The notes beneath the pieces were generated by a model that saw only the letters and a list, made by a program, of their open reading frames with translations, was not told the origin of the DNA and searched no databases. A stretch of 23,134 bases of DNA from a virus. Each line of letters begins with the position of its first letter. Position 1 is the stretch's first letter. The stretch covers positions 1-23,134 of IMG/VR virus record IMGVR_UViG_3300010354_000690; one strand, written 5' to 3'. Shown here one piece after another: positions 1,482 through 23,042 of this stretch. Made by a program: the position numbers and the translations under genes.

Positions 1482-3987
1482 ACTCTTCTCCTACACGATC
1501 CCCAACTTGTTCCAGGGGATTAGCCAGCAGCCCGATGCGCAGCGTGACCCGACCCAGGGCGAGCTGCAGATCAATGGCTACTCATCAATCTCGGAAGGGC
1601 TGAGGAAGCGGGAGCCAACGCAGTCGCTGGCCAAGATCAGTACCACCGATTTGGGCGACGTGTTCGTCCACTCCGTGCTGCGAGACAGCGCAGAGAAGTA
1701 CCTGGTGGTGATCAGCAAGACCGCCATCCGGGTGTTCGATCTGGCCGGCACTGAGTACACGGTCAGCGCCGCGGCGGGTGCGTACACCTACCTGTCGTCG
1801 GTGGTGAGCGCCAAGAGCGACATCCGCGCCGTCTCAATCGGCGACTACACCTTCATCTCCAACACCCGGGCGCTGCCAGACATGGACAGCACCTTGTTGG
1901 CCCCGGCGACCGCCAGGCCCGCCACCCATGAGGCGCTGGTCTGGGTGAAGGCCGCTAACTACGGCCAGAAATACACCGTCACCTTGAACAGCACGACGGT
2001 GGACGTGACCACCGCCACGGCGGCCGTGATCGTGGTGGGCAGCACGCTGACCGAAACCAAGATCAGCGCGGCTGAAATCGCCGAGAACATCAAGACCGGC
2101 CTGGCCGGCGTGAGCGGCGTCACGATCGAGCGCAGTGGATCGGTGCTGCACTTCAAGAGCAGCAGCGCCATGACGATCAAGGCGACGGATGCCCGCGCCA
2201 ATGCCGACATCACGGCGATCACCAACAGCGTTCAGGTGTTCACCGAGCTGCCGACCATCGCGCCAGTCGGCTACCAGATCGAGATCACCGGCGACCCGGG
2301 CAATGCCTGGGATGGCTACTACGTCGAGTTCAAGCCGCGCTCCGGCCAGGGCACTTTCGGGGAGGGCTCCTGGAGGGAGACCGTTGCCCCGGGCGCCGAG
2401 TACCGCATCAAACCGAGCACGATGCCGCACGTCCTGGTGCGCAGGCCGGATAACACCTTCTATTTCGGGCCGATGGATGGCTCGACCATCGCCACGGGCG
2501 TCACGCTGCGGAAGTGGGGTGATCGCACCTGTGGCGACTATGTGACCGCTCCCGACCCGAGCTTCATCGGCAAGGGCATCCAGGATCTGTTCGTCTTCAA
2601 GAACCGCCTGGGGATCCTGGCTGACGAGGCCGTGGTGCTCAGCCGCCCCGGCGAGTTCTTTGAGTTCTTCCCGGAGACCGTCACCACAACACTGGCGACT
2701 GACCCGATTGACATCAAGGCCAGCGGCACACGGGTCAGCGTGCTGCGTTACGCGGTGCCGTTCCAGGACGAGCTGATCCTGTTCTCGGACCAGACGCAGT
2801 TCCGCCTTTCGAGCAACGACACCACGTTGACCTCAGCCACAGCGCAGATCACCGCGCTGACCCAGTACGAGATCGACACCCGCTGCCGGCCAACGCAGAT
2901 CGGCAACGGCATTGTCTTTGCCCAGGTGGCCGGCGACTGGACCAAGTTTCGTGAGTTCAGCATCCGCGGCAGCGGCACTTCGATCGCGGCCGATGCGGTT
3001 GAGCTGACCCAGCAGGTGGCGGCCTATGTGCCGAGCGGGGTGTTCCGCATCGCGGCCGATGACACCAGCAACAGCTGGTACGCCATCAGCGACAGAACGG
3101 GCTATCTCAACCGGATCTACGCGCAAAAGTTCTTCCTGCGAAACACGGGGAACGGCGTCGAGCGCCTGCAGAACAGCTGGAGCCATTGGCAGCTGAGCGG
3201 TGCCGACAAGGTGCTCCAGGTGCTTGCGATCCAGGAGGTGCTCTATCTGCTGGTGCAGTACGGCACGGAGGTCTGGCTGGAGAAGATGCCGATTGCGGAT
3301 CAAACCGCAGAGAGCGCCACCAAGCCCACCCCATTGCTGCTCGATCGCTGGGTGTCCACCACCGCGGATACGCCGACAGCGATTCGCGTCGCGGCTGGCA
3401 CCTACAACGCCACGACGGGCATTACGACGTGGACGCTGCCCTACACGATCAAATCCAAGACGCAGGCTTGGAGCTCGTTCTCGACGGCCAATGGCGGCGT
3501 GCTACTTGGGGAGGCAAGCAGCGGCAGCACGATCACGGCGCGTGGCAACTGGAGCGCCAAGGCGATTTTCTTTGGCGAGGTCTACGACTTCCAGTACCGC
3601 TTCACGAAGTTCAAGGCGATGCGAGAGATTGGCAGTGGCAAGACCGCTGCCAACAGCCTGCGGACTCAGGTGCGGAAAGCGCTGCTCCGGTATCACGAGA
3701 CCGGCTATTTCGAGGCGCACGTCAAGGCTGAGCGCCGCAGCACTGCTGTTTACAAGTACAGCGGCGTCATCCTCGGCAGCCGCAACAGCGTGGTGGGCCA
3801 AGACGCCTGGAACTTCGACCAGGCGACAGAGGACAAGCGGTATCAGGAGGGGGTGTTCACCATCCCGGTCCTCAGCAAAGGGGACAACTGCGTGGTGGAG
3901 ATCCACAACGCTTCTGCCCTCCCTTGCAAGTTCAGCACTTGCGAGTGGATCGGCCTCATCACTGGCAAGGCCAAATCAATGCAATGA
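1474..3987 (+). CDS. Tail tubular protein B (T7 gp12-like nozzle)
   Basis: The protein of 837 residues corresponds to the T7 nozzle (gp12, 794 residues), which forms the distal hexameric tail tube through which DNA leaves. Conserved gp12 blocks are visible in order: NLFQGISQQPDAQRDPTQGE at the N-terminus, INGYSSISEGLRKREP, SIGDYTFISNTR, TMPHVLVRRPDNTFYF, CGDYVTAPDPSFIGKGIQDL followed by FVFKNRLGILADEAVVLSRP, DPIDIKASGTRVSVLRYAVP followed by FQDELILFSDQTQFRLSS, and QNSWSHWQLS. The start is TTG 1474 with a strong ribosome binding site. The stop TGA overlaps the next ATG as ATGA, so the next gene is probably translationally coupled. The C-terminal part carries the usual GTYN and YTIKS-type repeats of the family. 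Confidence 0.95.
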   Translation: MAELFSYTIPNLFQGISQQPDAQRDPTQGELQINGYSSISEGLRKREPTQSLAKISTTDLGDVFVHSVLRDSAEKYLVVISKTAIRVFDLAGTEYTVSAAAGAYTYLSSVVSAKSDIRAVSIGDYTFISNTRALPDMDSTLLAPATARPATHEALVWVKAANYGQKYTVTLNSTTVDVTTATAAVIVVGSTLTETKISAAEIAENIKTGLAGVSGVTIERSGSVLHFKSSSAMTIKATDARANADITAITNSVQVFTELPTIAPVGYQIEITGDPGNAWDGYYVEFKPRSGQGTFGEGSWRETVAPGAEYRIKPSTMPHVLVRRPDNTFYFGPMDGSTIATGVTLRKWGDRTCGDYVTAPDPSFIGKGIQDLFVFKNRLGILADEAVVLSRPGEFFEFFPETVTTTLATDPIDIKASGTRVSVLRYAVPFQDELILFSDQTQFRLSSNDTTLTSATAQITALTQYEIDTRCRPTQIGNGIVFAQVAGDWTKFREFSIRGSGTSIAADAVELTQQVAAYVPSGVFRIAADDTSNSWYAISDRTGYLNRIYAQKFFLRNTGNGVERLQNSWSHWQLSGADKVLQVLAIQEVLYLLVQYGTEVWLEKMPIADQTAESATKPTPLLLDRWVSTTADTPTAIRVAAGTYNATTGITTWTLPYTIKSKTQAWSSFSTANGGVLLGEASSGSTITARGNWSAKAIFFGEVYDFQYRFTKFKAMREIGSGKTAANSLRTQVRKALLRYHETGYFEAHVKAERRSTAVYKYSGVILGSRNSVVGQDAWNFDQATEDKRYQEGVFTIPVLSKGDNCVVEIHNASALPCKFSTCEWIGLITGKAKSMQ

Positions 3988-5326: not shown

Positions 5327-8116
5327 ATGGCACGCGAACAACTACCTCTCGGGCAGATCCAGCCGGCGGCCCGTCCGGTGTCGAGCTTTGTGCAGCCAGG
5401 GCTGATCGAAACGGCCCGCCCTGCGCAGCCGCAGCAGATCAACCTTTCCAGTGATCGGATCGGCCTGGTGCAGACCGCTGCCGCGCCGAACGTGCAGGGT
5501 TACGACCAAGGCGAGCAGTTGGCTCGAGCACTGGCTCCATTTAGCCAGAACCTCACCAAGCTGATGAACTATGGCGTCCAGCTGTACGCCTCCAATGAAT
5601 ACCAGCAGGGCCAGAACGAAGCGCTGAAGGCCTACACGATCGCCAACCGCCAGTTGATGGTGTCGGCGGACGAATACGCGGCCGAGAACCGCGACGTGGC
5701 CCGACAGGATCCTGTCGCTGGCCTGCTGATGGATCGGGCTAACCCGTTCCGCACGGCCGGCCGTCAGAACCAGCTGAGCAAGCTGGCGTCGGTTGAGATG
5801 CCGATGATCATGCGGCGGGAGTTCAACCAGCGCCGCGCTGATCTGGCGCTGCTGGACCCGGCCGACCCGAAGGTCAATGCGGTCAAGGCCGCCGCCATCG
5901 CCCAGGTGAGCCAGAAGTTCGGCCTGAGCGAGTTCACCCCCGGCTTCATGGACTACGTCCTGCCGCGGATGAACAGCGAGTGGGACAAGATCACCCAGGA
6001 CCAGATCGACGACCACAACAAGTACCTGGATGAGACGGTGCCGCGGATTGCGGCGGCCACCATCTACGGCCGGGTGAAGAAGGCTATGGCGGACGGCGTG
6101 CCGCTGGCCCAGATCGTCGCCAACGAAACCAGCTACCTCGATCAGGAGGCGCGGCGTTTCGGCATCCCTGGCAAGGGCCAGGAGATGAAGGAGACGGCGA
6201 TCAAAAACGCGATTTCCATGGCGATGGATCCGCAGACCGGCGTGATCGATCGGGAGGCGCGGGCCGTCATCGGCTCGATTTTGGTTGGCCCGCCGGACTC
6301 CAACGGCTACCGGCCTACGGCCCAGCAGATGTACGCGCTGGAGATCCTCGAGGCGACTGACAGGACGGACCAGATGAACTACCGCGCCCGCAAGGCGCAG
6401 CAAGAAGCCGTTGGCCAGCGATACGCCGACGAGGTCGCCGGCGCCACCCTTGGCCTGCCGGATGGCCCAGAGAAGGCCGCTCGGCTTGAGCAGATCAGGG
6501 GCCAGTACCAGGGGCAGCTGCCGCTGTCGGAAATGCTCAAGATCGAGCAGAGCACCACCAACGTCACCGAAGACATCACCAGCCGCGGTTTTGCCGATGA
6601 CGCTGGCGCCGTGTTTCTCCAGGAAGCCGACGCCGCTTACGGCAGTGACTGGGATCCTGCTCAATTCGATCGGCTCTTCCAGTTCGAGCTGCAACAGGTT
6701 GCGCCCGAGCGGCGCGCACAGTTCTCCGCCCAGTACGCCGAGCTGCGTCGCCGCAAGGAAACGCAGAAGCAGAACATGCCGGACAGCCTCATCAACGGCG
6801 CCATTGCGCGCCAGGTGAGGGCAAACATTGAGGCCAACTACCCGGACGATGTGCTGGGACAGGCGAATCAGGCCATCCGCCAAGCCCGCAACATCAACGA
6901 GCTCATGGCCGTCAACGACGCCAATGCAGCTGCGTCAGCGGCACGCCAGAACGCGGCCTTCCGCACCGCGATCTACCGCGCCATCGACGCCAAGCGGGCG
7001 GAGCTGAATCGAGACCTGAATCCCGCCGAGCAGCAGCAGGTGATTGATTCCACCTTGACCGGGTTCCAAAAGAACGCACCGGCCACCTGGAAGACGCTGT
7101 TTCCCGGCACCAATGGCCAGCCAAGCACGGTTCCATTTGGGACGACCCGGCCTGGCGCCGATCGCCCTGAACCGCCCAAGCCGCCGCCGGGCCGCCGGGC
7201 GCAGGGAGCACCCACCTTTGGTGTGGCTCAGTTGGACACGATGCCGAGCCGCGAGCAGCGGCTGCAGAACTGGCGCGGCGAGGCCGTGCTCAGCGCATCC
7301 GAAACCGCCCGGCTGATCCCGCTGGCTCTAGGCGGGCAGTCTCTCCCGGCCCCCCTCACCAGGGCGGCCAAGGCAGCCGGCACCAGCCCGCAGCAGTTCC
7401 TGCTCCAGCAGGCGGACTTCTACCCCAACGACATCAAGCTGACGCCGGCTCAGCGCTCGCAACTCGGGAGAAGTGGCCAGCAGGCGCGGGCGACACAGAG
7501 CTACTCGCAGCAGGTGGCCGCCGCGCAGCGCAGCTCGCAATCACCCCTGGCAGCTGCCGGCATGTGGGCCCTGGATGCCATCACCGGCACGGCTCCTGCT
7601 TACGCGGGCTCAATGCAGAACTTCTCCGCAAGAGGCCAGGCCATGGCAACAACATCGGGCTCGACAAACTTGCTTGGCGTTATCAAGGATCTGCGCGGCG
7701 CTAATTCGTTCCGTGGCATCTCGCTGATCAAGAACAAGCGCCCCGGCGACTACCAAAGTCATCCAAGGGAGAACTGGTTCTTTGACTTCAACCCTTCCGT
7801 TGTGCCGCTGGCAATTAAGCGAGCCCAGCGCCTGACAGAACAGGACGTCAATGCCCTTGTCTTTACCGCGTTGACCGAAGCAGGCCCGACCATGCGGGGA
7901 AAACTTGAGGTCGCGGCGAACCTCATCAACAGATCTGCCGTTGCCGGCAATAAACCGATTGTCGACATTGCGAAGGCGCCAGGCCAATACGAGGGGGTTT
8001 TCCGGTACACGCGTGGCCAGGTGATCAGCGCCGCGGAAGGCAGGCGCATTTTCGGTTCCCTTTACGACCAAGTAAGGGACCAAATCAGACAGGCCACCAC
8101 TGGAGGTAAAGGCTGA
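5327..8116 (+). CDS. gp15-like internal virion protein with C-terminal SleB-like cell-wall hydrolase domain
   Basis: This protein of 929 residues matches T7 gp15 (747 residues) in gene order and overall character: a long, polar, largely helical protein that in T7 forms the periplasmic tunnel after ejection. A Pro-rich linker (around 610-625, DRPEPPKPPPGRR) separates the body from a C-terminal extension. The extension (about 840-915) resembles the Hydrolase_2/SleB family: FTALTEAGPTMRGKLEVAAN, LINRSA, then IVDIAKAPGQYEGVF. By family comparison Glu851 in TEAG would be the catalytic glutamate, and PGQYEGV (885-891) fits the conserved PGQF block. T7 gp15 has no such domain; T7 carries a transglycosylase on gp16 instead. 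The start ATG 5327 has GGAGG 10 nt upstream, and the stop overlaps the next gene in TGATG. The core-protein role is well supported; the hydrolase call comes from the motif only. Confidence 0.82.
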   Translation: MAREQLPLGQIQPAARPVSSFVQPGLIETARPAQPQQINLSSDRIGLVQTAAAPNVQGYDQGEQLARALAPFSQNLTKLMNYGVQLYASNEYQQGQNEALKAYTIANRQLMVSADEYAAENRDVARQDPVAGLLMDRANPFRTAGRQNQLSKLASVEMPMIMRREFNQRRADLALLDPADPKVNAVKAAAIAQVSQKFGLSEFTPGFMDYVLPRMNSEWDKITQDQIDDHNKYLDETVPRIAAATIYGRVKKAMADGVPLAQIVANETSYLDQEARRFGIPGKGQEMKETAIKNAISMAMDPQTGVIDREARAVIGSILVGPPDSNGYRPTAQQMYALEILEATDRTDQMNYRARKAQQEAVGQRYADEVAGATLGLPDGPEKAARLEQIRGQYQGQLPLSEMLKIEQSTTNVTEDITSRGFADDAGAVFLQEADAAYGSDWDPAQFDRLFQFELQQVAPERRAQFSAQYAELRRRKETQKQNMPDSLINGAIARQVRANIEANYPDDVLGQANQAIRQARNINELMAVNDANAAASAARQNAAFRTAIYRAIDAKRAELNRDLNPAEQQQVIDSTLTGFQKNAPATWKTLFPGTNGQPSTVPFGTTRPGADRPEPPKPPPGRRAQGAPTFGVAQLDTMPSREQRLQNWRGEAVLSASETARLIPLALGGQSLPAPLTRAAKAAGTSPQQFLLQQADFYPNDIKLTPAQRSQLGRSGQQARATQSYSQQVAAAQRSSQSPLAAAGMWALDAITGTAPAYAGSMQNFSARGQAMATTSGSTNLLGVIKDLRGANSFRGISLIKNKRPGDYQSHPRENWFFDFNPSVVPLAIKRAQRLTEQDVNALVFTALTEAGPTMRGKLEVAANLINRSAVAGNKPIVDIAKAPGQYEGVFRYTRGQVISAAEGRRIFGSLYDQVRDQIRQATTGGKG

Positions 8117-11100
8117 TGCCTATCGAGTACGTCACCGATCCCCGCACCGGGAAAGTTGCTGCCAAGGGCTCGCTGGGCTTTGGCCAGCCTGTTGTCCCCG
8201 AGCGTCCCCCGGCCCCTCGCGCCAAGCCCAAGCCGAAACCCAAGCCCAAGGCCAACAACTTCTGGGGCGTCGGGCCCGGCGGCTTCTCACTGAGCAAGCT
8301 CGGCAACGACCTCCGCTACGAGCTCAACCAGCTGGCGACAGACCCGCTGCGCAGCGTTGAGCGGGCGGCGAGCACGACCATGCGCAGCACGCCGGCTGGC
8401 ATCGCCTTCAGGCAGGGCAGCCTTGGCGCCACGGCGGCGACCGCCAATGCCGTTCGCGCTGGCATCGAATGGAAGCAGCGGGCCGGCGGCCGAAAGCAGA
8501 CCGACTACAGCACCAGCCCTACCGGCCGCGCCGTCGACCGGGTTGTCGATCACGTCTACCGCTCGGCAGGGGTAACGCCTCCATCGCAGATGACGCCCGA
8601 GGAGAAGGGCGTCGATGACCTGCGCAGCGCACTGACCCTTGGCGTGGCTGGCGGCGTTGGCGTTGGCGTTGGGCTGAAAGCCCTGAGTGGCGTCCGCTTT
8701 GTTGGCCCTGCCGCACAGACGCTGGCCAATGCGATGAACCCGGCCCTGGCGAAGTCCTGGCAGGGCGCAGTATCGCGCCTGGCGTTTGACGCCGCCGTTG
8801 GCGAGGCCGTCACCACTCCGCTGGATTACACCGCCACCGGCGGCAGCGCCGTGAGCCTGGTTGATGCCGTTCTCGGCACCAAGCTCGACCCGGTCAAGCC
8901 GGGCATGGCCTTCCCTGATGCGGCCGCAGCCTCATTCATCCCCAACGTCGCGTTCGGCGTCGGCCTAGGCGGCGCCTTCGTGGGCATCAACCGGGCGCGG
9001 AAAGCTCGCAGCGTGGTGCAGCAGACCGTTGAGCAGCCCCGGGCGGAGCTCGAGGGGGCTGGCCTGGTCCAGAGCGACCCCGATACCGGTGCCACGGCGT
9101 TCACCCCAGAGGCCGCGCAGGGCCAAAGCCTGCGCGAGGCCAATGCCGCCCTGGAGGAGAAGTACGGCATCAGCGCGCCGGAGCCTGCAGCAGCGCCGGA
9201 GCCTGCCATCCCTAGCCAGGCGATGGAGCCCGGCGGCGCCGTCATGGAAGGCGATCTGCCCACGGCAGACCCCGGCCTTGATCCATGGGCCATCGACTAC
9301 GACCCCGAGCTACCGGAGGCCGATGTCGCCTTCAGTCAGATCAAGAACGCCTCCGATGCTGAACTGCTCGACGCCGTCCGCAGTGGCGGCTCAGTCCTGG
9401 AGGAGCTGGACCAGCGCATGGCCAGCCGCCAGCCGCTTGAGCCCGACCCCGCGCTGAGCACTGAGCTGAATACGGCGCCCAGCGACAGCCTGGCTGATCC
9501 GATCACGCCGTTCGCGCAGCAATGGCAGCAGCTGGGCAAGCGTGAACCGCAGCAACTGCTCAACGTTCTTCACCCAGAGGTGAATCCTGACCTGGCAGCA
9601 AGGGCCCAGGCGCTGACCGGCAAGGAATGGGAGGAGCTCACCCCGGCCGATGCGGTGCAAACGCTGCAGGCAGCAGCGGACGACGGCTCGATCGTCATCC
9701 CCAGCCGCCTGGTGCCCGGCCAGCAAATGATGAAGACGGGCGACCTCAAGATCGACCCGGCCCGCTTCCAGTTCAAGCAAGGCACCGACGCTCGAGGCGT
9801 ACAGCGCGGCTCCTCCCTCGAGGGCGTCGATCGCTGGAACACCGACATGGAGCAGCCGGTCGAGGTGTGGCAAGACCCGGCCGACGGCGAGTTCTATGTG
9901 GTGAACGGCCACAACCGCTTCGCCCTGGCCCAGGCGAAGAACATCCCGACCCTGCCGATCAAGGAGATCTTTGCTGAGTCGCCGGAGCAGGCGAAAACAG
10001 TCGGCGCGCTGAGCAATATCGCCACTGGCGGCGGCCGACCAATCGACGCGGCTTGGTTCATCAAAGGCGCCGGCATCACTGAGCCCGGCCAGCTGGAGTC
10101 GCTTGGCGTGCCCCTGGCCCCCGACTCCGGCAACGGCCTTTCGGGCTTTCAGCTCAGCCGCCTGCCGGAGGACATCCTGCGCGCGGTCGAGAGCGGCCAG
10201 ATCAAGGAACGCCAAGGCCGGCTGATTGGCGGCAGCGGGGCTGATGAAGCCTCGATGCGCGGCGCCTACCGCTACCTGGTCGAGAACCCCGGCACCACCG
10301 AGGGGCGCCTGAAAGGGATGCTCGAACTGAGCAAGCAGATGACCGGCGAGGCCCAGGCGACTGGCCGCGTTGATCAGCCCGACATGCTCAAGGGAACCGA
10401 CTGGGACCAGACCTTCAACAAGCAGATGGTGGCGGTCGCCGACCTGGCGGATGAGGTGGCGACCCTGCTGAAGCGGGAGAAGCGCCTGTTCTCCATGGCG
10501 GACGCCAACTCGGCGGCGCTGGAGGCCAAGGGCAGCCGGATCGATAAGGCCAGCGCGCAGCAGGTGGCCGAGGCCAACGCCCGCGCCATCGACTACTTCC
10601 AGCGCACCTGGATGGAGACCGGCCCGATCCGCGATCTGCTCAACGAGGGCGGCAACCGCGTCGCAGCCGGCGAGAACAAGGGCGCGATCGCTAAGCAAAT
10701 CAAGAACCGCTTGGTGGGTCAGCTCGCTGATCTGATGGGCGAGCAGGCCATCACCCGGGCCGACGTGGTCCAGGAAGATCTGCTGGCCCAGGCGCCGCAG
10801 AAGCTCGATGAGCTGCTGCCCGATGACCGCCAGGCGATGGAGATGCTGGCCATTCAGCGCGCCATCCAGAACGGCGAGGTGCGGCCGCCTGAAACGCCGA
10901 TCCCCGATCTGCCGATGGATTCGGGTGTCGACCTGATGAAGGTCCAGCGCGATCTGGCCGAGAACACCATCACCGACGACGTGGTGCAGGCCATGGCGGA
11001 CGAGCTGGAGCTCCGCGATGCCTACCGCCAGCTGGACGACGCCGTCGCCCAAGAGGCGGAGAAGGCCGCGCGCGACGCCGAGGGCTACGACCTCAAGACC

Positions 11101-12696
11101 TTCGATGAGAAGAAGGCCGCGGGGGTGGTGAGCGACTTCCAGGAACCGCCAGCATTGCCAACGCCTCCGCCAATCGAAATCCCAACTGGAGCCAGCCGCA
11201 AGATCACAGCCCGGACTGACGAAAGCCGGATCGAGGTTGCTGCACAAAGCCTTCAGAACTGGGCCGGCAGCGTCCTGGGCGAGCCGATGTCGCTGGATCA
11301 GGCCATCGCCTTTGTGCGGGGCAAGGGCGAGATCCTCGACCCGGACAAGATCCCTGGCCTGGACATGGACGCCGCCCGGGCCGACAAGACGAAGGGCGTG
11401 CGTGACACGCCTGCCACGGAGGCCGTTGCCCAGGCCTACCGCCAGTTCTATGGCGTCAAGTCGCCGGGGCTACGCGCCATGCAGGCAAGCGGCGCCATCC
11501 CCCCGGGCAGCGGCATCCCCAGCCGCCTGGTCGACGAGTGGCTATTTGAGAAGCCGGATGGCTGGGCCGCATCTGCAGCGCAGCAGTTGATGGCAACCAA
11601 GAAGCCCAAAGACTTCACCAAGCGCGAGGCGTTCCTGGTGGATTTTGCGGCCGAGGTTCGGGACTTTGGCGGCGAGCGGCGCTTCCGCGATGCTTGGCTG
11701 AACAGGCTGGAGGGTGACGCCAACAGTTCCGCCGCAAAAGCGGAAGAGGGCGAGCTGGATGGCTGGCTGGTGACTTATAGCGAGAGGTCTGCGCAATCCC
11801 TAGCCCGCGACGCGACGGCTGAGCTCATGGCCGCCATGCGCGAAGGGATCCGCGTCTCCGGCATCAAGCCAGAGCGCATGAAGGTGCTCGATCAAATCCT
11901 CATCGCGCGCGAGTTCGGGGTCGACGAGGCCTATCAGGCGGCAAAAGCATGGAATCCAGCCGCGGCCAGGCTGATCGAACAGCGCCCCTTCACAGATGCC
12001 GCCCAGTACTTGGACAGCCGGACCGCCGGACTCCGAGTTCCCGTCCAGTATCCAGGACCTCTTCAAGACTCAATTCTTCTTTCGTTGGAGCTACAGCTCT
12101 CAAAATCTTTCGGGAAAGGCCGGGCAGCCTCAGGGCGGCGCGGACGATCCATGGTCGGGGACGCGTACCACGAGGCGTTTCACCGGCTGCAGGAGTTCCT
12201 GTTCCCGACTGAAAAGGCTGCATTGAAGACCCCAGAGGCGAAAGAGGAAATGGTCGCCCTGATCAAAAAGGGAGGCGGCGTCTACCAGCCTGACATGGAC
12301 ATCGACGAGATCCAGGCCGAGGCTTTTGCCGTGTGGGCCTTGCGCAGATATGAGGCGCGGACGAAGGGATCAGCTGTTCAGGCGGTTTTCTCCGCTATCG
12401 GGGAGCTGGTGAACAACGTCGGCGCCGTTGTGCGCGCCATCAGGAAGAAGTCGCCAACCGTTGTTGACGTTTTCGAGGACGCGTGGAGCGGAGCGGTCGG
12501 CGATCGCTCCGACAAGGTTCTTCAGAAACTGGGCAACCCCGACCTGCTTCGCATTGCAGGCGAGGTTGACGCGCAACTTGCCAGGGCTCGCCCTGACATT
12601 GCTCAAAGAGTTCGGGCCGAGGTCGACCGCAGGTATGCGCAAGTCGAAGCCGACCTGGATGATTGGAACAATCGCAACCGCGAAGGAGGCTGCTGA
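8116..12696 (+). CDS. Giant ejection/virion protein with DdrB-like ParB-fold domain and C-terminal zincin motif (polyvalent type)
   Basis: Protein of 1526 residues at the position of the T7 gp16 region. An N-terminal basic tract (AKPKPKPKPKAN, about 36-47) is followed by glycine-rich hydrophobic segments near 176-195 and 275-295, then an Ala/Pro/Glu linker (about 355-375). Around 536-720 a ParB/DdrB-like domain is visible: MKTGDLKIDPARFQFK, then VVNGHNRFALAQAKNIPTLP with N597-G-H-N-R601, followed by a helical part (SGFQLSRLPEDILRAVESGQ). The C-terminal domain contains H1352-E-A-F-H1356 with a possible third ligand in DEIQAEAF (E1398 or E1402), the arrangement of zincin metallopeptidases. DdrB-like ParB and zincin domains are known from the polyvalent proteins of phages and plasmids; phage P1 DdrB is virion-packaged. 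Role in ejection is inferred from position. No N-terminal lytic transglycosylase is seen. ATG 8116 has GGAGGT 8 nt upstream and shares its A with the previous stop. Confidence 0.75.
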   Translation: MPIEYVTDPRTGKVAAKGSLGFGQPVVPERPPAPRAKPKPKPKPKANNFWGVGPGGFSLSKLGNDLRYELNQLATDPLRSVERAASTTMRSTPAGIAFRQGSLGATAATANAVRAGIEWKQRAGGRKQTDYSTSPTGRAVDRVVDHVYRSAGVTPPSQMTPEEKGVDDLRSALTLGVAGGVGVGVGLKALSGVRFVGPAAQTLANAMNPALAKSWQGAVSRLAFDAAVGEAVTTPLDYTATGGSAVSLVDAVLGTKLDPVKPGMAFPDAAAASFIPNVAFGVGLGGAFVGINRARKARSVVQQTVEQPRAELEGAGLVQSDPDTGATAFTPEAAQGQSLREANAALEEKYGISAPEPAAAPEPAIPSQAMEPGGAVMEGDLPTADPGLDPWAIDYDPELPEADVAFSQIKNASDAELLDAVRSGGSVLEELDQRMASRQPLEPDPALSTELNTAPSDSLADPITPFAQQWQQLGKREPQQLLNVLHPEVNPDLAARAQALTGKEWEELTPADAVQTLQAAADDGSIVIPSRLVPGQQMMKTGDLKIDPARFQFKQGTDARGVQRGSSLEGVDRWNTDMEQPVEVWQDPADGEFYVVNGHNRFALAQAKNIPTLPIKEIFAESPEQAKTVGALSNIATGGGRPIDAAWFIKGAGITEPGQLESLGVPLAPDSGNGLSGFQLSRLPEDILRAVESGQIKERQGRLIGGSGADEASMRGAYRYLVENPGTTEGRLKGMLELSKQMTGEAQATGRVDQPDMLKGTDWDQTFNKQMVAVADLADEVATLLKREKRLFSMADANSAALEAKGSRIDKASAQQVAEANARAIDYFQRTWMETGPIRDLLNEGGNRVAAGENKGAIAKQIKNRLVGQLADLMGEQAITRADVVQEDLLAQAPQKLDELLPDDRQAMEMLAIQRAIQNGEVRPPETPIPDLPMDSGVDLMKVQRDLAENTITDDVVQAMADELELRDAYRQLDDAVAQEAEKAARDAEGYDLKTFDEKKAAGVVSDFQEPPALPTPPPIEIPTGASRKITARTDESRIEVAAQSLQNWAGSVLGEPMSLDQAIAFVRGKGEILDPDKIPGLDMDAARADKTKGVRDTPATEAVAQAYRQFYGVKSPGLRAMQASGAIPPGSGIPSRLVDEWLFEKPDGWAASAAQQLMATKKPKDFTKREAFLVDFAAEVRDFGGERRFRDAWLNRLEGDANSSAAKAEEGELDGWLVTYSERSAQSLARDATAELMAAMREGIRVSGIKPERMKVLDQILIAREFGVDEAYQAAKAWNPAAARLIEQRPFTDAAQYLDSRTAGLRVPVQYPGPLQDSILLSLELQLSKSFGKGRAASGRRGRSMVGDAYHEAFHRLQEFLFPTEKAALKTPEAKEEMVALIKKGGGVYQPDMDIDEIQAEAFAVWALRRYEARTKGSAVQAVFSAIGELVNNVGAVVRAIRKKSPTVVDVFEDAWSGAVGDRSDKVLQKLGNPDLLRIAGEVDAQLARARPDIAQRVRAEVDRRYAQVEADLDDWNNRNREGGC

Positions 12697-21137: not shown

Positions 21138-21323
21138 ATGAATCACCTCTCCGATTACGTCGCCCTGGCCATTGCCATTCACGGCGTCGCCTTGGTGGTG
21201 GTCAACATGACCCCCACACCCAAAGACAACAAGGCCCTTAACGATTACACCCGGCTCCTCGTCAAGTTCTACCGGGTGATCGAAGTGGCGGCCGGCATCA
21301 TCAGCCCCAAGGTGAAGAGGTAG
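21138..21323 (+). CDS. 61-residue membrane protein, holin-like candidate
   Basis: The ATG at 21138 follows the previous stop by 1 nt. Residues about 5-25 (SDYVALAIAIHGVALVVVNM) form one membrane helix, followed by a conserved-looking polar turn TPTPKDNKALNDYTRL and a second, weaker hydrophobic helix (VKFYRVIEVAAGIISP) before a basic KVKR tail. Two helices with a basic C-terminus and position next to a lysozyme operon fit a small holin or a membrane lysis regulator. A longer frame from 21003 would overlap the 59-residue gene nearly completely and would put the membrane segment in the middle; the short start is preferred. Confidence 0.6.
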   Translation: MNHLSDYVALAIAIHGVALVVVNMTPTPKDNKALNDYTRLLVKFYRVIEVAAGIISPKVKR

Positions 21324-21544: not shown

Positions 21545-21861
21545 ATCACTGTCTTGGTTTGGTGGTTGGGGTCGCTTTCATCCAGACCATGGGCCAGTGG
21601 GTCAAAACTGCTCGCAGCGTCAACGACCGGCTCCACGCCTGAGCGTTTGCTGGCATCAGCCGCCTCGAGGGATGCGATCCAGCTGTCGAATGACTCCCGC
21701 ATGGGGATCTTCGCGGGCAGCTTGAGCCAGCGCCTGACCTCTTTCGGACAACGCAAGAACACGCTGGCGCCCTTGTCGTATGCGATGAAAAAACGTCCGT
21801 TCCAGTCCTTTCCTGTCTCAACCGTTGTCGTATGGCTGAGATGCAGTCGTTCGCGCTTCAT
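21541..21861 (-). CDS. 106-residue protein of unknown function in the lysozyme operon
   Basis: The start ATG (21861-21859) overlaps the lysozyme stop as ATGA, so the gene is cotranscribed with the lysozyme and probably translationally coupled. The protein begins with a beta-rich part (LHLSHTTTVETGKDWNGRFF followed by IAYDKGASVFLRCP), then a basic helix EVRRWLKLPAKIPMRE and a tryptophan helix (FDSWIASLEAADAS), and ends in an acidic disordered tail. No membrane segment, signal peptide or enzyme motif is seen. It could be a lysis modulator or an unrelated accessory protein. The overlapping plus-strand frame 21554-21874 is judged a shadow because it has no conserved-looking features or gene coupling. 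Confidence 0.6.
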   Translation of the reverse strand: MKRERLHLSHTTTVETGKDWNGRFFIAYDKGASVFLRCPKEVRRWLKLPAKIPMRESFDSWIASLEAADASKRSGVEPVVDAASSFDPLAHGLDESDPNHQTKTVI

Positions 21862-23042
21862 GGCTTACAGGTGAGATACCAGCCGCCACTGCCGCCAGGC
21901 ATCCATCGCGGATTCCAGTTCTTGCGGCTGTAGATCATCCCGGCGCCTTTGGTGTTCTTGGCGTAACCGCCCTGCACCAGCAAGGCCTCGCCATTGGGAT
22001 CGTTCTGGATCCAGGCCACATCCGTGTAGCCGATCACTACGGTCCAGTGGCCGCCGCCCCGGGGCGCGCTCACAGGGCCTTGATGCAGCCAGCCAACAGC
22101 GACGGGCCGGCCGGCATCAACCTCGCGCTCCAGGTCTTCCTGCGTGCCGTTCGTGTGGAAGTCGGCCTTGAGGCTCAGGGAACGCAGCGCAGCGAGTTGA
22201 GCTTCGGCTGATGTGGTGTCGCCGTATTTGGCGCGAACAGCGTTGTAGGCGTCGTCGTTCGCCACCTTGCCCCAGAACATTGCGAGCATGGCGCAGCTCG
22301 ACGAGAAGCACTCGCGGGCACCCTGCTGGCTCTTGTTATCGAGCTGGCTCTGCCACTTCACGTTGAGCAGGGTGGATTTCTTGGCGAGGGGTGTTGTGTT
22401 GCCCTGCCACAGCTGCCCTTCGGCGCGGCGGCGGCGCAGCAGGCCTACCTCCACGTTGGTGCCTGGGTTGCGGTAGAGCTCCAGTGCGGCTGGCACCTTG
22501 TCCCATGTCTTGTCGCGCAGGCGGCGGCTGATGGTCTCGAACCCAGCAGCGCCCATGAACCCAGGGCCAAGGTTGTAGGCGAAGCTGATCAGGGCACACT
22601 GCTGCCCCTGGCTCATCTCCTGCCAATGGGGGATTGCGCCGCGCAGCTTCTTGGCGATGGATTCGACCTCACCCTCGAGCAGCTCGTTGGCATCCACGAC
22701 GGTGATCTGATCTCCGCGTTGCACTTTGCGCCCATCCCTGTACCGGGTGGTGCCGTAGCCGATCGTCCAGGGATCGCCGCCGCTCAATGGGTCGGGGTAT
22801 GCGCTCAGATGACATCCCTCGAAGTCTTTGATCAGCTTGACGGCCGGCGCATAGCCCGCTGTTGAACCAGCATCACGCCAGTCCTGGACCCATTCGGCGG
22901 ATTCACACAGCAACCCAGGGTCTGCTTCTTTGATGTGCCGCCCGAGCTTCTTGATCGCATCTTTCTGATGCTCAAGCCCCTTGTAGTTATCCCAGAACTG
23001 CAGCCATCGCGGATCAGTGAACTGGACTTCCTCGATCGGCAT
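21858..23042 (-). CDS. Endolysin: GH24 lysozyme fused to C39-like cysteine peptidase domain
   Basis: Protein of 394 residues on the strand opposite to all structural genes. Residues 1-60 are a small helical module (WLQFWDNYKGLEHQKDAIKK). Residues about 65-212 form a phage-type lysozyme (GH24) that cuts the peptidoglycan glycan chain: Glu75 in DFEG, Asp84 and Thr93 in PWTIGYGT follow the T4 lysozyme E-D-T pattern with a three-residue insertion, and SFAYNLGPG plus LLRRRRAEGQLW complete the fold. Residues about 225-394 resemble peptidase C39_2: LNVKWQSQLDN, the putative nucleophile Cys245 in ECFSSSCAM, His332 in GHWTVVIGY, Asn347/Asp348 in NDPNG. This domain may cut peptide bonds in the wall or bind substrate. 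The ATG start (23042-23040) has GGAG about 13 nt upstream; TTG 23078 would add 12 residues but overlap the divergent gene. No signal peptide is seen, so a holin is expected. Confidence 0.9.
   Translation of the reverse strand: MPIEEVQFTDPRWLQFWDNYKGLEHQKDAIKKLGRHIKEADPGLLCESAEWVQDWRDAGSTAGYAPAVKLIKDFEGCHLSAYPDPLSGGDPWTIGYGTTRYRDGRKVQRGDQITVVDANELLEGEVESIAKKLRGAIPHWQEMSQGQQCALISFAYNLGPGFMGAAGFETISRRLRDKTWDKVPAALELYRNPGTNVEVGLLRRRRAEGQLWQGNTTPLAKKSTLLNVKWQSQLDNKSQQGARECFSSSCAMLAMFWGKVANDDAYNAVRAKYGDTTSAEAQLAALRSLSLKADFHTNGTQEDLEREVDAGRPVAVGWLHQGPVSAPRGGGHWTVVIGYTDVAWIQNDPNGEALLVQGGYAKNTKGAGMIYSRKNWNPRWMPGGSGGWYLTCKP

Follow-up and report, generated by a model that had tools for sequence, protein, structure and literature searches.

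A cyanophage lysin joining a GH24 muramidase to a C39-type peptidase, and its relatives with exchangeable glycosidases and putative -1 frameshifting

Why does a phage lysozyme carry, in the same chain, a domain of the C39 peptidase type? Classic C39 domains process bacteriocin leaders, and the gene that raises the question lies in an IMG/VR virus record of 23,134 bases (IMGVR_UViG_3300010354_000690), the whole of which was analysed and is called here the window. An earlier, sequence-only reading had taken the gene for one lysin combining GH24 and C39_2 domains, which would cut both glycan and peptide or else process a partner protein. In its gene order (tail tubular proteins, large internal proteins, fibre) the window agrees with S-SRP02, an autographivirus of freshwater Synechococcus, and from this order we infer that the virus is a T7-like cyanophage. 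One of the internal proteins, of 1526 residues (8116-12696), matches, over residues 540-667, an inner segment of a PHROG annotated as portal protein (E 1.3e-24).

The lysin is encoded by a single open frame (Table 1), in which both Pfam domains score above their curated cut-offs as the sequence-only reading had supposed, with PF00959 Phage_lysozyme at residues 72-208 (E 2.3e-24, 86.6 bits against 22.3) and PF13529 Peptidase_C39_2 at residues 226-350 (E 1.8e-8, 35.5 bits against 24). Over the 394 residues Pfam returned only these two and a weaker C70 match; the ABC-transporter membrane and ATPase domains that go with a bacteriocin-processing C39 protein are absent. E75, D84, T93, C245, H332, N347 and D348 stand in the translation exactly where they had been placed. 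PHROGs identifies the relatives of the protein as endolysins. Neither a signal peptide nor a SAR sequence was found, the KD19 peak over the first 60 residues being -0.3, and with its wall-hydrolase domains and its location in a phage genome the protein has the make-up of a modular phage endolysin. The AlphaFold2 model has a mean pLDDT of 83.7, in which the C39 domain and the GH24 scaffold are confident. A convergent open reading frame is a weak holin candidate, its match to Holin_SPP1 (E 0.085) lying below the cut-off.

Table 1. Features of the lysin gene and of the candidate holin in the window
Feature	Position	Strand	Description and basis
Lysin gene	21858..23042	-	394 aa, uninterrupted from ATG (23040-23042) to stop (21858-21860); in-frame N-domain + GH24 + C39; ORF and translation
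'PHQ-type' N-domain (name coined in this work), aa 1-60	22863..23042	-	about 60 aa, three-helix; common to T4-like split genes and other cyanophage lysins
GH24 muramidase domain, aa 72-208	22419..22829	-	PF00959, E/D/T residues, fold match
GH24 residues	E75 22818-22820; D84 22791-22793; T93 22764-22766	-	
Exchangeable cassette, about aa 57-227	22362..22874	-	GH73 or nothing instead in relatives; nucleotide similarity breaks
C39-type cysteine peptidase domain, aa 219-394	21861..22388	-	PF13529, conserved residues, fold match
C39 residues	Q233 22344-22346; C245 22308-22310; H332 22047-22049; D348 21999-22001	-	
Holin candidate (weak)	21141..21323	+	60-codon ORF, one hydrophobic stretch, convergent to lysin; KD19 maximum 2.07

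The catalytic Glu, Asp and Thr of the muramidase are kept in all ten GH24 rows aligned. The model of residues 61-215 matches solved GH24 endolysins (9kbs, Z 15.0), the active-site loop 77-92 being poorly modelled (pLDDT below 50). The fold matches PHAb10/PHAb11, AbLys1, R21 and P22 lysozyme share the GH24 domain and its E/D/T residues with the window protein, in which, unlike in them, this domain sits between an N-domain and a peptidase.

In the C39 domain C245, H332 and D348 are invariant in the 35 aligned domains of the family and Q233 is kept in at least 90% of them. N347 is not invariant, and of the two residues offered earlier as the acid of the triad it is D348 that stands. The roles given here to the Cys, His, Asp and preceding Gln are those that we take to hold for C39 peptidases. 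The model of residues 220-394 matches C39 and papain-like folds, the nearest being 3erv, a C39-like protein of B. anthracis (Z 15.7, rmsd 3.0, 155 residues aligned), followed by the C39 domains of PCAT1 and ComA (Z about 14-15) and by the pseudomurein endoisopeptidase PeiR (8z4h, Z 14.8). PeiR, which is of phage origin, is likewise a papain-like cysteine peptidase, but it acts on archaeal pseudomurein according to its entry title and has 15% identity to the window domain. By sequence the C39 domains match solved structures weakly (3erv, E 0.079); the two best profile matches were de novo TIM barrels, which we took for chance. Family, conservation and fold considered together, the C39 domain most likely cuts wall peptides, in the stem or in the cross-link.

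The sequence-only reading had suggested a search for the same fusion in cyanophages and cyanobacteria, and there it proved to be common, in cyanophages as in picocyanobacterial genomes. With tblastn the window lysin matches 480 phage records, in 44 of which a single place accounts for 80% or more of the query, Synechococcus phages foremost. From an IMG/VR scan 80 of 188 loci were kept, and a scan of species genomes gave 50 loci, many from Cyanobium, Synechococcus and Okeania. The region before C39 in the 80 IMG/VR loci is GH24 in 8 and GH73 in 26, while 46 have no middle domain. The second middle module is Glucosaminidase PF01832 (GH73) by Pfam, which over 66 family members found C39 in 62, GH73 in 23, GH24 in 11 and M15_3 in 1. 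The middle of L014-L038, considered as a diverged GH24, was thereby assigned to GH73, and S-CBS3 gp23, considered as a GH24-C39 protein, was set aside on account of its C-terminal Peptidase_M15_3. The architectures of further phages are N-domain+GH73+C39 (S-CBS1, S-EIVl), GH24+N-domain+C39 (S-CBS2), GH73+N-domain+C39 (S-CRES2), N-domain+GH24+M15_3 (S-CBS3, S-LBS1), N-domain+GH73 (S-SRP01) and, by PHROG matches, N-domain with a chitinase-type domain (P60, KBS-S-2A).

Comparison of the DNA with GH73-type and no-middle loci placed the borders of the middle at residues ~52-59 and ~223-230. In L014, a GH73-type locus, identity to the window is 92.9% between a point 90 nt upstream of the start and residue 59; the middle is unrelated, and from residue 228 to past the end of the gene identity is 82.6%. 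A tree of 116 C39 rows requires at least 20 changes in the type of middle; when well supported branches only are counted, 7 changes of GH24 and 4 of GH73 are unavoidable. Copies within one Cyanobium genome likewise differ precisely by having or lacking GH24. Since the N-domain and C39 persist in the relatives while what lies between them is exchanged at fixed borders (residues ~57 and ~225), C39 is the invariable element and the glycosidase the optional one; the N-domain with C39 is the core of the family and the glycosidase a cassette that is swapped or lost. A two-activity lysin is thus still the best reading of the window protein, whereas its portrayal as a lysozyme with an unusual C39 addition was upside down. 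The exchange of glycosidases at fixed borders amounts to a natural domain-swap experiment.

Lysins that keep C39 without a lysozyme also bear on phages in which the lysis gene has been sought elsewhere. PF00959 is found in none of 20 C39-only records, among them the complete circular genome of S-SRP02. GH73 (PF01832) is absent from S-SRP02 and occurs elsewhere in 4 of the 20 records, each time in an ORF of 937-938 residues; one of these four records also has a second lysin, and so C39 need not be the sole wall enzyme in such phages. The one such ORF compared, in L203, is homologous to the virion-type protein of the window (5327-8116). The account of the S-SRP02 genome reports that no lysozyme was found and proposes ORF45 as the lysis gene (PMC8790148). 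ORF45 aligns with the N-terminus of the 5327-8116 protein (29% over 263 residues) and has the same place among virion genes, and on this likeness and position ORF10 appears to be the better candidate for lysis in S-SRP02. ORF10, the 'C39 family peptidase' of that account, has the N-domain and C39 as in the window but not GH24; a candidate lysis enzyme would thereby be available for phages of this kind, whose authors had found no lysozyme (PMC8790148). In the virion-type protein itself (window 5327-8116; L203; L087 32903-35809) the N-terminal part is kept and the C-terminal end differs in each; the end is GH73 in L203 (PF01832) and, as judged by eye with no family match, lysozyme-like in S-SRP02 ORF45 and SleB-like in the window.

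The N-terminal domain comprises about 55-60 residues with helices at 10-18, 24-40 and 50-58 (model pLDDT 88.8) and a recurring PHQ motif. No Pfam or NCBIfam family covers it, and Foldseek against the PDB gave no match to its model at E up to 10; a helical domain of 61 residues is hard to search, so that this null does not mean a new fold. A profile built from 43 rows matched 84 of 291 cyanobacterial genomes, all from the class to which Synechococcus SynAce01 belongs. The counts in two other phyla were 1 of 198 and 1 of 200 genomes, each the seed genome and both of them MAGs; once these two were set aside, none of the 396 control genomes matched. Two tblastn searches of phage records gave 16 of 16 and 13 of 13 matches in Synechococcus phages or cyanophages. 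Within the genomes sampled, therefore, the N-domain is restricted to Cyanobacteria. In the host it was sampled through the 30 best matches, one ORF each, where its partners are PG_binding_1 (17), GH25 (10), C39 (5), M15_3 (3), GH19 (2), Amidase_2 (1) and YkuD (1), with at least one of these in 24 of the 30 proteins by a tally made by hand. Because its usual companions are wall hydrolases or PG_binding_1, the N-domain is probably a cyanobacterial wall-binding domain; it would deserve a name, Pfam having held no such domain for the lysins of this phylum. In one host protein (L174 1501-2127) the N-domain is accompanied by a stretch that looks lysozyme-like by eye and has no Pfam match.

In the T4-like relatives the order of the domains is reversed (C39-GH24) with respect to the in-frame fusion of the window. 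In S-PM2 and S-CAM7 a C39 frame is followed by a GH24 frame in -1 overlap, with no ATG, GTG or TTG before GH24. The C39 proteins of both phages served to collect junction loci (80 + 25), and 103 were examined, namely four isolate loci and L204-L302, L303-L308 being left out as matching at the N-terminus only. The C39 and GH24 frames overlap in 68 loci, always by -1, and are fused in frame in 12; 20 loci have C39 only, and 3, which end near the junction, were excluded from the comparison. A slippery heptamer (X XXY YYZ) in the zero frame occurs within the last 30 nt of 67 of the 68 overlap loci and of none of the 20 C39-only loci, the one overlap locus without it being L271. Among 54 distinct junctions the heptamer is A AAA AAG in 49, T TTT TTT in 3 and A AAA AAA in 1, with none in 1, and it abuts the stop codon in 42 of 53; elsewhere in these genes, over 20521 codon positions, A AAA AAG in frame does not occur.

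Downstream of the heptamer the RNA is predicted to be structured. The 70 nt that begin 5 nt past it fold better than shuffled sequences (mean z -2.0, n=53), against +0.51 and +0.48 at control places, and 40 of 53 junctions have a stem scoring at least 20 that starts 3-7 nt past the heptamer, compared with 2 of 53 and 0 of 51 at the controls. In all, 44 distinct stems were listed. Within a family of 17 sequences, pairing holds in 98.6% of the cells and both sides have changed in 4 of 13 pairs, while sliding the partner strand as a control left no such pair. Two loci, L261 and L283, which have one extra A, encode the expected fusion in a single frame with a KKVE junction of the same type, and in the annotation of ACG-2014f the lysin is one fused CDS. 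An Rfam search of the junction sites of 8 loci found no family. The window lysin, in one open frame, has neither a zero-frame slippery heptamer nor another frameshift signal. In dnaX-type -1 programmed frameshifting A AAA AAG is followed by a stem-loop, and this is the arrangement at the T4-like lysin junctions, where, in contrast to dnaX, the signal would link the two wall-cutting enzymes of a phage lysin. The comparison of these junctions strongly suggests that T4-like cyanophages use programmed -1 frameshifting to produce C39 alone together with C39-GH24, and it argues as strongly that GH24 would be joined to C39 in these phages by in-frame fusion, as separate genes or, most often, by the -1 frameshift. 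If true, a -1 slip that attaches a sugar cutter would be a novel means of assembling a lysis enzyme, and ribosomal frameshifting a putative dosage device in an endolysin gene, even in the well-known S-PM2. The annotated 'putative lysin' of 72 codons in S-PM2 (L002 2822-3040) is only the end of the open GH24 frame, whose beginning lies within the terminal part of the C39 frame. In L280 an Rfam PhotoRC-II RNA (3220-3314) lies about 1 kb downstream of the frameshift lysin.

Each of these assignments has alternatives, of which we consider a re-initiation at the T4-like junctions quite unlikely as a general account. GH24 would then be made by termination and re-initiation or from an unannotated start, the heptamer being incidental. 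An ATG does precede GH24 in 9 of the 68 overlap loci, and GTG or TTG in others; counted by distinct -1 junctions, 7 of 54 have an ATG, among them S-SRM01 (L088), L237 and L250, which have no good stem. Poor stems are expected at these three if GH24 has its own start there, and such junctions point to re-initiation serving some phages. However, 59 of the 68 loci have no ATG and 38 have none of the three start codons, and a heptamer so nearly confined to overlap loci, a stem at a set distance after it, the covariation of that stem and the in-frame orthologues with one extra A would all be left without a reason. Programmed -1 frameshifting is accordingly retained for most of these junctions.

The activity of the C39 domain and the function of the N-domain have likewise to be weighed. 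That C39 is catalytically dead, a binding or structural domain beside a wall cut by GH24 or GH73 alone, would fit its weak sequence match to solved C39 peptidases and the lysins of the group in which GH24 goes with M15_3 instead; this seems unlikely, given the invariant Cys, His and Asp and the near-constant Gln, the retention of C39 in the 46 loci where no middle enzyme accompanies it and in the 20 records where no lysozyme was found, and the fact that M15_3, which can take its place, is itself a peptidase family. Very improbable, in our judgement, is a leader-type protease acting on a phage or host protein rather than on peptidoglycan. The peptidase domains of PCAT1 and ComA are among the fold matches, but the phage pseudomurein endopeptidase PeiR is equally near in fold, C39 is tied here to wall-hydrolase domains or to the wall-associated N-domain, and the window lysin has no transporter domain. 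The processing of a partner protein, offered earlier as the second possibility, finds no support, neither an ABC transporter nor a leader-peptide context having been seen. For the N-domain, docking to a phage or host protein (a holin, a chaperone or a partner lysin) instead of the wall is a possibility to be kept in mind, although we hold it to be the lesser one: both split T4-like genes of DSL-LC02 and DSL-LC03 have their own copy of the domain, and 3 of the 30 host proteins, which look exported by eye, have no other known domain. Against docking, the domain may be N-terminal, internal or C-terminal and is mostly found beside wall hydrolases or PG_binding_1. We thus keep a peptide-cutting C39 and a wall-binding N-domain as the preferred assignments.

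C39-type peptidases are already known as endolysin modules, as in the N5 domain of mycobacteriophage LysA (Payne and Hatfull 2012, PMC3314691), and PET-C39-2 (PF13529) is named as an endolysin catalytic domain in a published domain list (PMC5017753). LysA proteins with N5 resemble the window lysin in being modular, with a C39-like cysteine peptidase, another domain and, in the centre, a glycosidase or amidase, and some LysA lack the central enzyme as do the no-middle cyanophage relatives; they differ in domain order, host wall and accessory domains, with neither GH24 nor the cyanobacterial N-domain, and frameshifting goes unmentioned in the passages on these modules (PMC3314691). The PET-C39-2 class has PF13529 in common with the window protein, while the parts of that source that treat it discuss neither a single modular lysin with PF00959 and PF13529 nor cassette exchange nor the N-domain (PMC5017753). 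In searches of the open-licence PMC literature we found no report of a modular GH24-C39 cyanophage lysin, of the N-domain or of endolysin frameshifting. C39-type endolysin domains were thus known, and what is new, as far as these searches show, is the C39 cassette system, the cyanobacterial N-domain and the frameshift lysins.

We propose that the window lysin, which has no export signal, would need a holin to open the membrane, after which the N-domain would hold it on the cyanobacterial wall. GH24 may then cut the glycan strand and C39, through C245, H332 and D348 with Q233 at the oxyanion, the stem or cross-link peptide, with other phages tuning or omitting the glycan cutter. Whether by fusion, by frameshift or as adjacent genes, C39 is kept with GH24, and this argues for joint action of the two. 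We regard as likely this reading in its entirety, of an endolysin with an N-domain wall anchor, a GH24 glycan cutter, a C39 peptide cutter, a swappable glycosidase cassette and, in T4-like relatives, a -1 frameshift. With more reserve, we lean towards a wider proposal, in which cyanophage lysins would be centred on the C39 peptidase with an optional glycosidase, T4-like phages setting the ratio of peptidase-only to peptidase-muramidase by -1 frameshifting and T7-like phages by cassette alleles, and in which a three-helix domain restricted to Cyanobacteria and shared with host wall enzymes would target all of them to the cyanobacterial wall.

Some further arrangements were observed among the family members. 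In Cyanobium and related genomes, lysin genes of the GH24+C39 or C39-only type lie in a dispersed repeat of about 3 kb with up to 9 matches per genome (L091-L099, L115, L116, L119, L120, L122, L123, L127, L128), as exemplified by L091 3375-6249, which equals L093 3370-6249 at 90.7%. The neighbours did not appear phage-like on inspection, and some copies are broken. An ORF of about 120 residues with one hydrophobic stretch overlaps the lysin start in L091, L093, L120 and L123. Finally, a virus record of 58.6 kb (L202, record G006), which may be a chimera, carries an N-domain+GH73+M15_3 lysin, as read from its sequence, together with an N-domain+C39 lysin.
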